Assembly (NCBI RefSeq): GCF_011082085.1
Contig: NZ_CP041063.1
Span: 2,604,001-2,668,000, forward strand
Direction: 5' to 3'
Origin: Bacillus sp. Cs-700
GTDB lineage: Bacteria; Bacillota; Bacilli; Bacillales; Guptibacillaceae
Length of the DNA: 64,000 bases
Made by a program: the position numbers and the translations under genes. Every line of letters begins with the position of its first letter. The first letter of the stretch is position 1. Positions 45,743-50,126 of the stretch are shown in pieces. Under the pieces are notes generated by a model. The model saw only the letters and a list, made by a program, of their open reading frames with translations. It searched no databases and had not been told where the DNA came from.

Positions 45743-46186
45743 CTATTGCTCTACCACATGTACTTTAACAGTTGCTGTTACATCATGGTGCAATTTAAGG
45801 GGTACATTTGTGTAACCCAGGGAACGGATTGGTTCATCTAGTTCAATTTTGCGTTTATCAACTTTGATGTTGTGCTTTTTCAGTTCTTCAGCAATATTTT
45901 TGCTTGTAATGGAACCGAACAAACGGCCACCTTCTCCAGACTTCGTTTTTAATTCAACTTCAAGGCTTTCGATTGTTTTCTTCAACGCTTTCGCTTCATC
46001 AAGCTCTTCTTGAGCTTTCTTATCGTCGCTACGCTGTTTCGCCTTTAGGGTTTTCATATTTGCATTATTCGCTTCTAGAGCAAGATTATTCTTAAGTAGA
46101 TGGTTACGAGCATATCCATCTGCTACGTTTTTAACTTCACCTTTTTTACCTTTACCTTTTACATCTTCTAAGAAAATCACTTTCAT
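45743..46186 (-). CDS. rplI: 50S ribosomal protein L9
   Basis: A 147-residue L9: N-terminal RNA-binding domain ([30 protein letters not shown]), long connecting helix, and C-terminal domain ([19 protein letters not shown]). Its start overlaps the gdpP stop as ATGA, so the two are translationally coupled. Confidence 0.98.
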
Positions 46187-48159
46187 GATTCATCCTCGCT
46201 CCCTTCCAAATAATTATCAATTGTTTCCTTAAGCATTTCTTCGGCTTCTTCAATTGACCCTGAGTCAATCTGCGTCGCAGCATTCGTTAAATGTCCACCA
46301 CCATTAAGGCCTTCCATAATGATCTGAACATTCACTTCCCCTAGCGACCTAGCACTTATGCTAATTTTACCATCATTTCGTTTCGAAATAACAAAAGATG
46401 CAATTACGCCACTCATTGATAGAAGCGTATCTGCCGCTTGAGCAATTAATACTTGATCATAGGTCTGATCCTTTTCACCTAGTGCGATCGCAATCCCACT
46501 CCGATAAATGTGTGACTTCTCTATGATTTTGGCTCTTCTAATATACTGCGCAATGTCTTCACGAAGGAACTCTTGAACAAGGACAGTATCAGCACCATGC
46601 GCCCTCAAATAAGAAGCAGCGTCAAATGTTCTAGAACCGGTCCTAAGCGTAAAGCTTTTCGTATCCACAATAATACCGGCTAGAAGCGCAGTTGCCTCCA
46701 TGATGTCCATTTTAAGCCGTTTTGGCTGGTATTCAAAGAGTTCCGTAACAAGCTCCGCTGTGGAAGAAGCATAGGGCTCCATGTAGACAAGAACGGGATC
46801 TTCAATAAACTCTTCTCCACGTCTATGGTGATCAATGACAACGACATGATCGAGCTTTTGCAAAAGACGCTCTTCCATAACAAGTGAAGGTTTATGTGTA
46901 TCGACGACAACTAAAAGCGTGTTAGGCGTACAATTCTCAAGCGCATCTTCAGGATCGATAAAACGTGCCCAAAGTTGCTCATTCCCTTCAATCTCTTCGA
47001 TTAATCGCGAGACACCGCTAGTCCGTTGATTTTGATCAAAAACGATTGAACCTTCTTTTCCATTTGCCTGGGCTACTTTAAGGATACCAATAGAAGCGCC
47101 AATGGAATCCATATCAGGGTTTTTATGCCCCATGATAATCACTTGGTCACTATCAAGGACAAGCTCCCGTAATGCATGGGAAATGACTCGTGCTCTTACC
47201 CTCGTCCGCTTTTCAATAGGGTTTGTCTTCCCACCATAAAATTTCACTTTTCCTGTCGTCTGCTTAATAGCAACTTGATCACCACCGCGTCCAAGCGCAA
47301 GATCAAGGCTAGATTGAGCCAACTGACCAAGTTCGGTAAGCGTACTATGTCCGCTACCAACTCCAATACTTAATGTAATCGAAACATTTTCCTTAGAAGT
47401 CGCTTCACGAACTTCATCAAGAATCGAAAACTTATTTTTTTCTAAGTCTTGAAGAATTTTTTGATTTAAAACAGCAAAGAATTTCTCAGAAGAACTTCGC
47501 TTCAAGAAGATTCCCTGTTCATCTGCCCAGTTATTTAGAATCGATGTGACGGAGCTGTTTAAGTTACTGCGCACTTGGTCACCAAGACCCTGGGTGACTT
47601 CTTCATAGTTATCAAGATAAATAATCCCAACAACTGTTTTTTCTTCATTATAAAGACGCTGAATTTCTACTTTTTCACTCACATCAAAGAAATAGAGCAA
47701 TCTTTCTTCTTGCTTAAAATATGTTTTGTATTTTCGATCATGAATCGTTAAAGTCTCTTCATTCGCCTCTGATTTTAGAAAGGGAATAATTTGTTCGGAA
47801 ATATCATTCAAAGAAAGTCCTATCAATTGCTCTTTCTCCATCATGATAGGCAAATAAGGATTCGTCCATTCGATGTGATATTCCTCATCATACAGCAAGA
47901 TTCCAAATGGCATTTCCATTAGAGCCTCGTCTCCCACCTTCTTCACGCGGTGAGACAGAGTCGAAACGTAGTCTCTGAGAGCAGCTTGGAATAAAGACTC
48001 AGCTCGAATCGCTGTGTAAACAAGAAGCGTCATTACTATTACGCTCCCAATTCCTAATATCCAGTTGTAATAGGTGATGATGCCGATAAACAGGATGGAA
48101 ATGACGAACAAGGCTACCACATGATAACCATGCCACCGTTTCGTTAAAAACTTTGGCAT
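46183..48159 (-). CDS. gdpP: Cyclic-di-AMP phosphodiesterase
   Basis: A 658-residue membrane protein (YybT). Two N-terminal transmembrane helices (about 13-50), a PAS domain (about 80-150), a degenerate GGDEF domain (about 170-300) and C-terminal DHH-DHHA1 phosphodiesterase: [31 protein letters not shown] and the [10 protein letters not shown] motif. It hydrolyses c-di-AMP to pApA. Neighbours are yybS (15 bp upstream) and rplI (overlap). Confidence 0.97.
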
Positions 48160-48174: not shown

Positions 48175-49101
48175 CTATGATTTCATTCTCCTTCGCAATT
48201 CGAAACCAAGATCAATGATTCCAATAATAACAACAAATGATGTTAGTGCGAAGCCAAGAAACGTTAACAGAATTGGCACGACGAGGGGCCATCCTTTATG
48301 ATGACTAAAAAAGTAAATGACAGCAAGACCCTGAACAAATATCAGAGCATTGAGTATAGAGTACACATTAATGGCTGCCACAAATACAGCCGATCCTTCT
48401 TCTAATCCTACCATCATAACAATAGTAACAACTAAATAATACCATAAAAAACTCTTCGGGAATGTCCATTCTCTGATTGGCTGAAAGACGGGTGGCTGAA
48501 AGTTGCCTACTCTTCTTAAAATTGGAATGGAAAGTAGCTGTGAAATCAGTGCAATCACTACACCCATGAGCACTAAACCTGTCGGAATTAAATAGCGCAA
48601 TAAACTAATTTGCTCTTTAAGTTGATTAAACTGGCTAGTGTCCAAACCTAACGAACGATATATCGATTCTGCTTGTTGAAAGGATTGATTCATCATTTCC
48701 ACAACAAGGTCAGCTGGATTTTGACCGATCACTAGAATACTCGATACAAAAGCAAGCACAAGGCCGACTACATACGCTAACCCGCTTCCTACCAATACAG
48801 CAAGTGCAGACTTACGAATTGCGTATAAATACCCAGCAGTTATCCCTCCAAGCCCTACCGTAAACGTCATAACGAGAGAAGGAAGACCTGCCGTTAACAC
48901 CCCAAGCACTATCGTCACAGCCCACATCACTAGCCCACTCTTCATACCATTGCGCACAACCATCAGTATAAACGGGATAGGAAGAGCCCAGAGCGTAAGA
49001 GAGCCTAAAAGTGGTACATAAATCGTAATCAGAAACAATACAGCAAACACGGCCGCAAGAGCAGCCCCTTCAACTAACTGCCTAACACCTTGATTCTTCA
49101 A
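48175..49101 (-). CDS. yybS: YybS/DUF2232 family membrane protein
   Basis: About 308 residues with eight or so hydrophobic helices, DUF2232 family, an ECF S-component-like fold of unknown substrate. The frame continues upstream into the tandem-repeat array, but the TTG at 49101 (MKNQGVRQLVEGAALAAV) has AAAGGAG seven bases before it and fits YybS N-termini. First gene of yybS-gdpP-rplI; the 120-bp repeat array ends 17 bases upstream of this start, so it lies in the leader. Confidence 0.88.
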   Translation of the reverse strand: MKNQGVRQLVEGAALAAVFAVLFLITIYVPLLGSLTLWALPIPFILMVVRNGMKSGLVMWAVTIVLGVLTAGLPSLVMTFTVGLGGITAGYLYAIRKSALAVLVGSGLAYVVGLVLAFVSSILVIGQNPADLVVEMMNQSFQQAESIYRSLGLDTSQFNQLKEQISLLRYLIPTGLVLMGVVIALISQLLSIPILRRVGNFQPPVFQPIREWTFPKSFLWYYLVVTIVMMVGLEEGSAVFVAAINVYSILNALIFVQGLAVIYFFSHHKGWPLVVPILLTFLGFALTSFVVIIGIIDLGFELRRRMKS

Positions 49102-49117
49102 TAGTCTTCTCCTTTTT

Positions 49118-49623
49118 GTAAAGCGGAAGTGGGCGGTTAGACCCGTCAGGCACTGGAGCCTTGCAAATTGAACACGATCTTTGTGTTCGAGTTGCAAGGT
49201 GAAGTGACAGAGGGTCTGCCCACTGCAGCTGGATCATGTAAAGCGGAGCGGGCCAGCTTAAATCCGGAGGGTGTTGGAGCCCATGAGACTGAGACGCTTT
49301 TTGTCTCATTCAATTGGACGAAACAGCCGAAGGATTTGGCCCGCGCAGCTGGATCAGTAAAGCGGAAGTGGGCGTTTAGGTCCGACAAGCGCTGGAAACA
49401 TTTCATTTGAACACGGTCTTTGTATTCGAATAAAAGGGTGAAGCGACTCGAGGACCTGCCCACTGCAGCTAGATCAGTAAAGCGGAAGTGACCGTTTAGG
49501 CTCGACAAGCACTGGAACCTTTACATTTGAACACGTTCTTTGTGTTCAGAGGGAAAGGTGAAGTGATCGAGAGACTGATCACTGCAGCTGGATCATGTAA
49601 AGCGGAAGTGACCGATAAAACAC
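49118..49623. repeat. Tandem array of 120-bp self-complementary units (4.2 copies)
   Basis: Units begin GTAAAGCGGA at 49118, 49238, 49357, 49477 and 49597 (last one partial), so the period is 119-120 bp. Each ends with GCAGCT(G/A)GATCA. Within a unit the ends pair as a long stem with an internal hairpin, and the paired bases co-vary: GTGGGC/GCCCAC with AGACCC/GGGTCT (unit 1), GCGGGCC/GGCCCGC with AAATCC/GGATTT (unit 2), GTGGGC/GCCCAC with AGGTCC/GGACCT (unit 3), GTGA/TCAC (unit 4). The apical hairpin is GAACAC/GTGTTC in units 1 and 4 and GAGAC/GTCTC in unit 2. No protein gene is supported here. Confidence 0.85.
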
Positions 49624-49707
49624 AATAATCAACCGAAGCCTTCCAGTCACTTAAATCCTATCCATACAGTATATCCATTCATTTTATCAACCCGCTTAGT
49701 AGAAATA

Positions 49708-49759
49708 CAAAAAACGGGTCGAAATCCCCTTACTACATTGTAAGAATTTCTGCCCGTTT
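49708..49759 (-). terminator. Large terminator-like hairpin between the HPr-like gene and the array
   Basis: Outer stem AAACGGG / CCCGTTT, middle GAAAT / ATTTC, inner CTTAC / GTAAG; on the minus strand it is followed by TTTTTTG. Confidence 0.65.
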
Positions 49760-49797
49760 CAGCAAATGTTTCATTAATTTGAATAGTGAGCATTAAG

Positions 49798-49829: not shown

Positions 49830-50126
49830 CTACATAAGAGATAGTGTATCTTCCCTTGCACCATCCATCTCTTTTTGAAGCCACTCGACTAATTGCACAG
49901 ATGCTGTTTGCGCATCTTCGCCGTCAGCAATAAGTAGAATCGAATCGCTTTCTTTCACGGTGAGATTAAACGTAATAACGCTCGTTAAATTCTTTCCGTT
50001 AATGCTATGCCCATTTCGATAGAGAGACACGTGACTATCAAACGTTTTCGCTTTTTTGACGAATGCCATAAGAGAATTCATACTAAGCGGAGCGGTAAGT
50101 GTTACTGTTGAAGTTTCAACGTTCAT
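49830..50126 (-). CDS. HPr-like protein lacking both phosphorylation sites
   Basis: A 98-residue protein with the HPr fold order (beta-alpha-beta-beta-alpha-beta-beta): VTLTAPLSMNSLMAFVKKAK, VSLYRNGHSINGKNLTSVITFNL, and DSILLIADGEDAQTASVQLVEWL. Aligned with HPr, the GIHARPA segment with catalytic His15 is replaced by LSMNSLMA, and Ser46 falls on Asn. So it can be neither phosphorylated by enzyme I nor by HPr kinase in the usual way. Monocistron between rpsR and yybS with its own terminator. A regulatory or structural role is possible. Confidence 0.65.
   Translation of the reverse strand: MNVETSTVTLTAPLSMNSLMAFVKKAKTFDSHVSLYRNGHSINGKNLTSVITFNLTVKESDSILLIADGEDAQTASVQLVEWLQKEMDGAREDTLSLM

Follow-up and report, generated by a model that had tools for sequence, protein, structure and literature searches.

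A tandem hairpin array upstream of yybS in Bacillus sp. Cs-700 belongs to a dispersed, structured and very probably mobile repeat family of the Bacillales

Introduction

Directly before the yybS-gdpP-rplI operon of Bacillus sp. Cs-700 lies a tandem array of hairpin-forming units of about 120 nt. Is this array a regulator of the operon that it adjoins, or is it a local copy of an element that spreads through genomes? We addressed this question starting from a 64,000-nt stretch of the genome (positions 2,604,001 to 2,668,000 of NZ_CP041063.1; hereafter the window), and combined the analysis of the array with searches of the whole genome, of related genomes and of wider samples of the order and phylum. 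An initial inspection of the letters (the sequence-only reading) had proposed that the units reflect either selection on structure or the spread of a self-complementary element.

The array and its position

The features of the locus, in window coordinates, are as follows.

45743..46186, minus strand: open reading frame that we take to be rplI
46183..48159, minus strand: open reading frame that we take to be gdpP, coding for the c-di-AMP phosphodiesterase
48175..49101, minus strand: yybS, open reading frame with a TTG start; related proteins occur in nine loci of named genomes
49109..49113, minus strand: AGGAG, ribosome-binding site of yybS, 4 nt from unit 1; the arrangement is repeated in four relatives (L033-L036)
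49118..49236, plus strand: repeat unit 1, 119 nt; helices GTGGGC/GCCCAC, AGACCC/GGGTCT and GAACAC/GTGTTC
49238..49356, plus strand: repeat unit 2, 119 nt, a divergent subtype; helices GCGGGCC/GGCCCGC, AAATCC/GGATTT and GAGAC/GTCTC
49357..49476, plus strand: repeat unit 3, 120 nt, ending in GCAGCTAGATCA
49477..49595, plus strand: repeat unit 4, 119 nt
49597..49613, plus strand: 3'-truncated fifth unit, 17 nt, GTAAAGCGGAAGTGACC, with the same helix-1 allele as unit 4
49737..49765, minus strand: promoter-like block TTGCTG-N17-TACAAT, identical in L033-L036

The sequence-only reading had described four full units and a partial fifth before yybS, spaced at 119-120 nt, and this holds for an array spanning 49118-49613. 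Two of its measurements needed correction: the recognisable array stops at 49613 rather than at 49623, and the gap to the TTG start of yybS (first base 49101) is 16 nt rather than 17. At the unit boundaries that it called constant, unit 3 differs by one change (GCAGCTAGATCA). Unit 1 corresponds to a covariance-model match at 2653120-2653233 of the same genome (G000), and units 2-4 are also backed by the covariance-model search of that genome. The array runs antisense to the operon and is situated between a 98-codon open reading frame (49830-50126, minus strand) and yybS (minus strand). This small frame, between rpsR and yybS, gives the impression of an HPr-family protein.

Folding predicted a long imperfect hairpin for each of units 1-4 on either strand, and the stems named in the sequence-only reading pair in the computed folds. 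Compared with 200 shuffles, the z-scores of units 1-4 were -6.9, -3.9, -3.1 and -3.4 on the plus strand and -6.5, -4.7, -6.0 and -3.7 on the minus strand, and a shuffle equalled the real fold solely for unit 3 on the plus strand (1/200).

The block TTGCTG-N17-TACAAT is considered promoter-like because of its conservation, and it falls below the threshold of a consensus scanner. At the matching place upstream of yybS in P. caeni (L037) we found TTGCTG-N17-TAAAAT with no array. Since the conserved block is upstream of the array, the array would be inside the 5' leader of yybS, a leader that is probably ~630 nt long. The consensus scan returned one weak site, at the array edge (49122-49093, minus strand), with 0.8 expected by chance. 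The surroundings of the promoter-like block (49707-49790) are near-invariant among four relatives whose yybS genes are 86-97.5% identical, and also hold an ACGGG/CCCGT inverted repeat with a T tract.

The array in relatives

The YybS protein shares 98% identity with its counterpart in Pseudalkalibacillus hwajinpoensis AmN0-1. Arrays lie directly at the yybS ribosome-binding site in the four relatives, with 7 units in L033, 2 in L034, 6 in L035 and 6 in L036 (one partial); the window has 4 units and P. caeni none. This variation from 2 to 7 units, and the absence from P. caeni, argues that the array is no fixed regulator. Three neighbouring units in L035 are identical, which points to recent tandem duplication.

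The best matches of the window units were to units at the same locus in relatives (94.8-96.5% identity), above any other unit of their own genome, in a comparison that covered own-genome units and the relatives' yybS loci. The subtypes thus look orthologous, even though their order and number differ among relatives. Window unit 1 shares 96.5% identity with units in L035 and L036, against 86% for the yybS gene of these relatives, which indicates constraint on the unit sequence. In L033, by contrast, the gene is 97.5% identical and the best units 94.8-96.5%, and units are therefore not uniformly more conserved than the gene. Among the relatives at this locus, the 52 unpaired columns carry 34 distinct changes and the 62 paired columns 20 events that alter a pair; of the one-sided events, 13 keep a standard pair in the relative and 6 destroy one, and 1 event is a double change. 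The retention of the array in four relatives possibly reflects selection for its upkeep, a point that counts against the explanation we favour below.

A dispersed and covarying family

BLAST detected 60 matches in the genome of Bacillus sp. Cs-700, a single contig of 4.30 Mb. With an iterated profile applied to the fetched loci, we identified 102 units, 93 of them near full length, in 37 tandem arrays of 1-6 units each. The genome-wide covariance-model search that the sequence-only reading had proposed, using a model built from 82 distinct units, gave 99 matches at E 0.01. Within the genus all 14 of 14 genomes (own included) carry matches, at 46-102 per genome, and in a sample of the order matches were found in 172 of 249 genomes and 76 of 105 genera (E 0.001), where copy numbers are lower bounds because no more than 15 candidates per genome were scored, under stricter filters. 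Tandem arrays are present in other families as well. As a negative control, a sample of the phylum yielded matches in 2 of 199 genomes, namely our own and G052, both from the order; among the 20 negatives itemised, out of 197, 1 belongs to the order. The suggested spread of a self-complementary element is thus supported by a family dispersed across the order, and with its discovery genome-wide the idea of a riboregulator specific to yybS was weakened.

We found no copy by blastn in 72,556 plasmid records (two queries) or in 50,697 phage records (one query), and carriage by plasmids or phages was rejected on these grounds. Such a lack is unusual for an active mobile element and also counts against our favoured explanation. 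Membership in a known Rfam family was rejected too, with no match at the gathering score to the units in the window or to those at eight loci drawn from seven genomes outside the genus; at E 10 the sole match was MAT2A_B, with 18.9 bits against a cut-off of 45. Our literature search, which covered CC-licensed PMC papers, found no description of the family.

Analysis of the alignment of 82 genomic units with RNAalifold gave a consensus structure of 31 pairs, 26 of which show changes on both sides. Pairing was kept in 94.8% of 2531 cells, compared with 75.4% in shuffles and 34-49% in slid versions, and the covariation score was 0.572, compared with 0.212 and at most 0.124, respectively; a structure taken from its own alignment tends to outscore slid versions. 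None of 500 shuffles reached any of five covariation measures, a test in which shuffles overstate significance when sequences are related. The covariation is nonetheless convincing because the difference is large and pairs of many types contribute to it, and a chance origin is excluded. Selection on structure, as suggested by the sequence-only reading, is therefore borne out, and the compensatory changes on whose presence in other genomic copies that reading had made its claim depend are abundant.

The alignment begins with AAAGCGGA and finishes with GCAGCTGGA. In parts of these ends and of the internal loop (TGGA opposite TGAA), most positions are either invariant or conserved to 90% or more. 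Folding favours the unit strand over its complement in 79 of 82 copies with RNA parameters and in 81 of 82 with DNA parameters. The asymmetry between G-U and A-C as a test of which strand is folded was 207 to 25 when four pairs with frequent wobbles were kept and 37 to 23 without them, and is not decisive.

Turnover, nesting and array growth

We followed array sites among relatives of Bacillus sp. Cs-700, choosing 18 arrays as stop-abutting (16 by codon-score call and two by eye); their flanks were searched in five relatives and followed in four (G008 left out). Filled sites made up 17 of the 18 sites found in G009, 11 of 16 in G006, 10 of 16 in G003 and 3 of 14 in G012, so that the filled share falls roughly with the distance of the relative. 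At many empty sites the stop codon leads, by eye, straight to a terminator-like hairpin, while one site counted as empty (2392175 in G006) still holds a unit start. Unit counts at shared sites are often unequal between relatives. Site 2406253 is empty in the near relative G009 and filled in three others, which indicates either loss or independent gain.

Units also nest. In genome G249 we found 12 matches in which a unit (ATCGAAAAG and variants) comes after GGACCGAA; 8 of the 12 also show the right junction, where the sequence returns to GCG. The un-nested counterpart, an intact GGACCGAAG, is found in units of four genomes. The nested insertions permit a target duplication of AA (2 nt) at most. 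A single event, whose product later spread as a composite, may lie behind the 12 matches. In the composite (L163, L166, L168, L173, L181, L190 and others), the internal loop of one unit holds a second unit, always at one position; as it occurs at many places, the composite may spread as one unit, and it could fold as a three-way junction. Elsewhere in this genome (L179, L186, L191, L196), several units have behind them a small second hairpin of the CAATTCTCGAAGTTG type and AT-rich sequence, which may mark a longer subfamily.

Arrays show polarity. They begin with an intact 5' end, 24 of the 33 non-rRNA arrays end with an incomplete unit, and in none of the 33 did we find a unit tail ahead of the array; the control gave 10 of 1386 windows. 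Taken together, copies appear to come, go and nest as mobile DNA does.

Placement at gene ends

Genes around the loci were called by codon score in our genome (34 loci) and in G249 (53 of 72 loci), leaving rRNA-operon loci aside, with a crude caller trained on the window. Of the 87 loci, 27 start between -2 and +7 nt from the end of a stop codon in the same sense (16/34 in our genome and 11/53 in G249). Another 43 lie antisense to the genes on either side, 6 have the same sense as their two neighbours and do not abut a stop, and 11 are mixed or have one side uncalled.

Copies also follow stable RNA genes. Our genome has six in rRNA operons, five of which were seen by eye between the 23S end and 5S; the sixth (3181092) was placed by a score identical to that of 2965062. 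The spacers contain two clearly different versions of the element (L051 1574-1687 and L075 1763-1875), in about four and about two operons. Outside our genome, copies after 23S rRNA were found in three genomes of two other genera, in G212 and G094 between 23S and 5S, and in G056 before 5S where a contig ends, with Rfam confirming 23S and 5S for G094 and 5S for G056. In G152 a copy lies 6 nt after a tRNA.

Orientation relative to replication

At its right end the window carries genes that, by protein sequence and order, we take to be parB, soj, noc, rsmG, mnmG and mnmE, which puts the replication origin just beyond; it was set at 2.672 Mb. The origins of five genomes were fixed by dnaA or gene order. 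In these genomes, 168 of 209 loci (168:41) are oriented opposite to the leading strand (p 2e-19, treating loci as independent), that is, with the strong orientation relative to the replication fork that is sought in IS200/IS605-type elements. The ratios of opposite to leading were 25:8 in our genome, omitting the rRNA copies, which run with the leading strand, 62:10 in G249, 39:8 in G113, 31:11 in G022 and 11:4 in G112, the last not significant alone (p 0.12).

A preference for antisense positions could by itself yield such ratios, since 76.6% of the flanking genes (called genes of our genome and G249) are leading. However, stop-abutting loci are leading in 12 of 27 cases (p 3e-4 against the gene background), and of the 43 loci that are antisense to both neighbours 1 has the leading orientation (p 2e-4). 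As both classes deviate from this background, the direction of replication seems to have an influence of its own, beyond gene direction. In most copies the better-folding strand is the one that is not exposed on the lagging-strand template. This is hard to reconcile with a simple IS608-like model; copies in the other orientation could instead be lost by deletion at a higher rate.

Candidate mobilising enzymes

The sequence-only reading had pointed to REP-like transposase (TnpA-REP) genes. Our genome has two Y1_Tnp genes, with no units within ~1.5 kb on either side of either one, an inspection of flanks that covered this genome. Across the order, a Y1_Tnp match, which pools RAYT with IS200 TnpA, was found in 141 of 172 element-positive and 46 of 77 element-negative genomes. 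The association is positive (141/31/46/31; Fisher p 4e-4, uncorrected for kinship), yet 31 of the 172 positive genomes have no match. TnpA-REP as the cause thus found no support, and RAYT was set aside as the mover, being unlinked to units in our genome and apparently dispensable for their presence despite the association. In L031, one Y1_Tnp gene (1246-1863) has by eye a different palindrome nearby, of the GGGGTCAGGCTCGAGCCTGACCCC type, perhaps a REP family of its own.

A reverse transcriptase as obligatory partner was also rejected, since RVT_1 is missing from 10 of 14 genomes of the genus, our own included. Neither a GTAG nor a CGTC tetranucleotide foot was found at the unit ends in the 82-unit alignment, and a search that covered Y1_Tnp and RVT_1 found no parent insertion sequence. 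That these searches yielded no mobilising enzyme also speaks against our favoured explanation.

Discussion

Our combined findings make it very probable that the units form a family that is dispersed, structured and mobile. What kind of element this is can be said with less confidence. We lean towards a non-autonomous mobile element of ~115-120 nt whose content is the structured hairpin alone, and with similarly modest confidence consider that handling of single strands at the replication fork by an enzyme acting in trans explains the family. The hairpin would be the substrate recognised by this enzyme, in single-stranded DNA or else in an RNA intermediate, and movement would be coupled to the fork. 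The gap between stop codon and terminator would be the site that the element prefers or that best tolerates it, and arrays would expand and contract through repeated insertion and unequal recombination. The yybS array may then be an old insertion, probably in the yybS-gdpP-rplI leader, antisense and adjoining the ribosome-binding site, and any effect on the mRNA of this operon would be a by-product until shown otherwise. More tentatively, the family might represent an undescribed, order-wide class of hairpin-only mobile elements, moved in trans by a putative enzyme that reads fork direction and gene 3' ends (stop codon, 23S, tRNA) and growing directional head-to-tail arrays with a truncated last unit; this fuller picture we hold to be doubtful as a whole.

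Could the units instead be functional RNA, that is, a structured 3'UTR or spacer module such as a processing or stabilising hairpin cut by an RNase III-type enzyme, which has spread and been selected at gene ends? The strong covariation, the better folding of the unit strand, the abutment of stops at 16/34 and 11/53 loci, the copies after 23S rRNA and tRNA, the rarity of sense loci without stop abutment (6/87) and the preference of changes at the yybS locus for unpaired columns (34 over 52, against 20 events over 62 paired) all fit this idea. However, neighbouring genes do not transcribe the better-folding sense at 43/87 loci and at the window array, which are antisense, orientation tracks replication beyond gene direction, and sites and copy number turn over within the genus, so that we regard it as unlikely. 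An account based on survivorship, which we rate as rather improbable, holds that insertion is unbiased and that copies with the better-folding strand on the lagging template are deleted by slippage, save where a stop-abutting position protects or selects them. It draws on two observations, namely that the unit strand is the better-folding one in 79-81 of 82 copies and that this strand is under-represented on the lagging template, but both strands of the four window units fold far above chance, so that the difference between strands may be too small for the purpose, and the spread of the element would be left unexplained.

Two further explanations are less probable still. A true REP/REPIN family driven by RAYT would share hairpin repeats, tandem clusters, location at gene 3' ends and single-strand logic with our units (PMC3116915, PMC3733652), and would agree with the above-chance co-occurrence of Y1_Tnp. 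Against it, and making it improbable, are the unit ends without the foot, the 31 positive genomes without a Y1_Tnp match, the two Y1_Tnp loci of our genome without units and the different palindrome seen by eye in L031. Least credible of all is a dedicated attenuator or structured leader controlling yybS-gdpP. The array does lie in a probable 5' leader beside the ribosome-binding site, as in L033-L036, yet the family occupies more than 30 other sites in the same genome, the number (2-7) and order of units vary among relatives, P. caeni lacks the array but has both yybS and the promoter-like block, and the array runs antisense. Given the turnover seen, a local regulatory role would not be the main explanation.

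How, then, does the family compare with known repeats? REPs and REPINs are described as small non-autonomous hairpin elements that are intergenic, often downstream of genes and in some cases in tandem clusters, with single-strand logic (PMC3116915, PMC3733652, PMC6006769), and are like our family in these respects. The unit is, however, about three to six times longer than a REP of 20-40 bp, and differs in its missing GTAG/CGTC foot, its head-to-tail arrays with an incomplete last unit, the absence of units near the Y1 genes of our genome and the 31/172 positive genomes without Y1_Tnp. The best reading is of a family that is REPIN-like in behaviour, with ends and Y1 linkage that differ from REP. 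The bcr1-bcr18 repeats of the Bacillus cereus group (~100-400 bp) are described as similarly from Bacillales, intergenic, often in UTRs and with mobile features (PMC3446304, PMC6542083). By the same description they are set apart by the restriction of bcr1 to the B. cereus group, compared with 76/105 genera here, and by mobility tied to a TTTAT motif, in contrast to our family. The stem-loop repeats Bhal-1, Bhal-2 and Bant-1 of Bacillus genomes are set apart by their described length of 72-76 nt (PMC2267715), compared with ~115 nt. NEMIS, ERIC and YPAL are bacterial MITEs (PMC3733652). Like our family, MITEs are non-coding inverted-repeat elements that lie beside genes and are transcribed with them; unlike them, our family has no clear terminal inverted repeats beyond the hairpin and a target duplication of 2 nt at most in nested copies. 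NEMIS elements are also subject to RNA cleavage. The family is best placed as a variant among the hairpin repeats (REPIN, MITE, bcr), with two unusual placement rules.

As far as the literature searched goes, the family is a common and apparently uncatalogued part of Bacillales genomes, with insertions in rRNA and tRNA operons among its copies. Such arrays should not each be taken as a local riboregulator. With tens of sites per genome, both empty and filled, it provides a natural system for studying how insertion is steered by replication direction and gene ends, and which enzyme moves an element consisting of a hairpin only.
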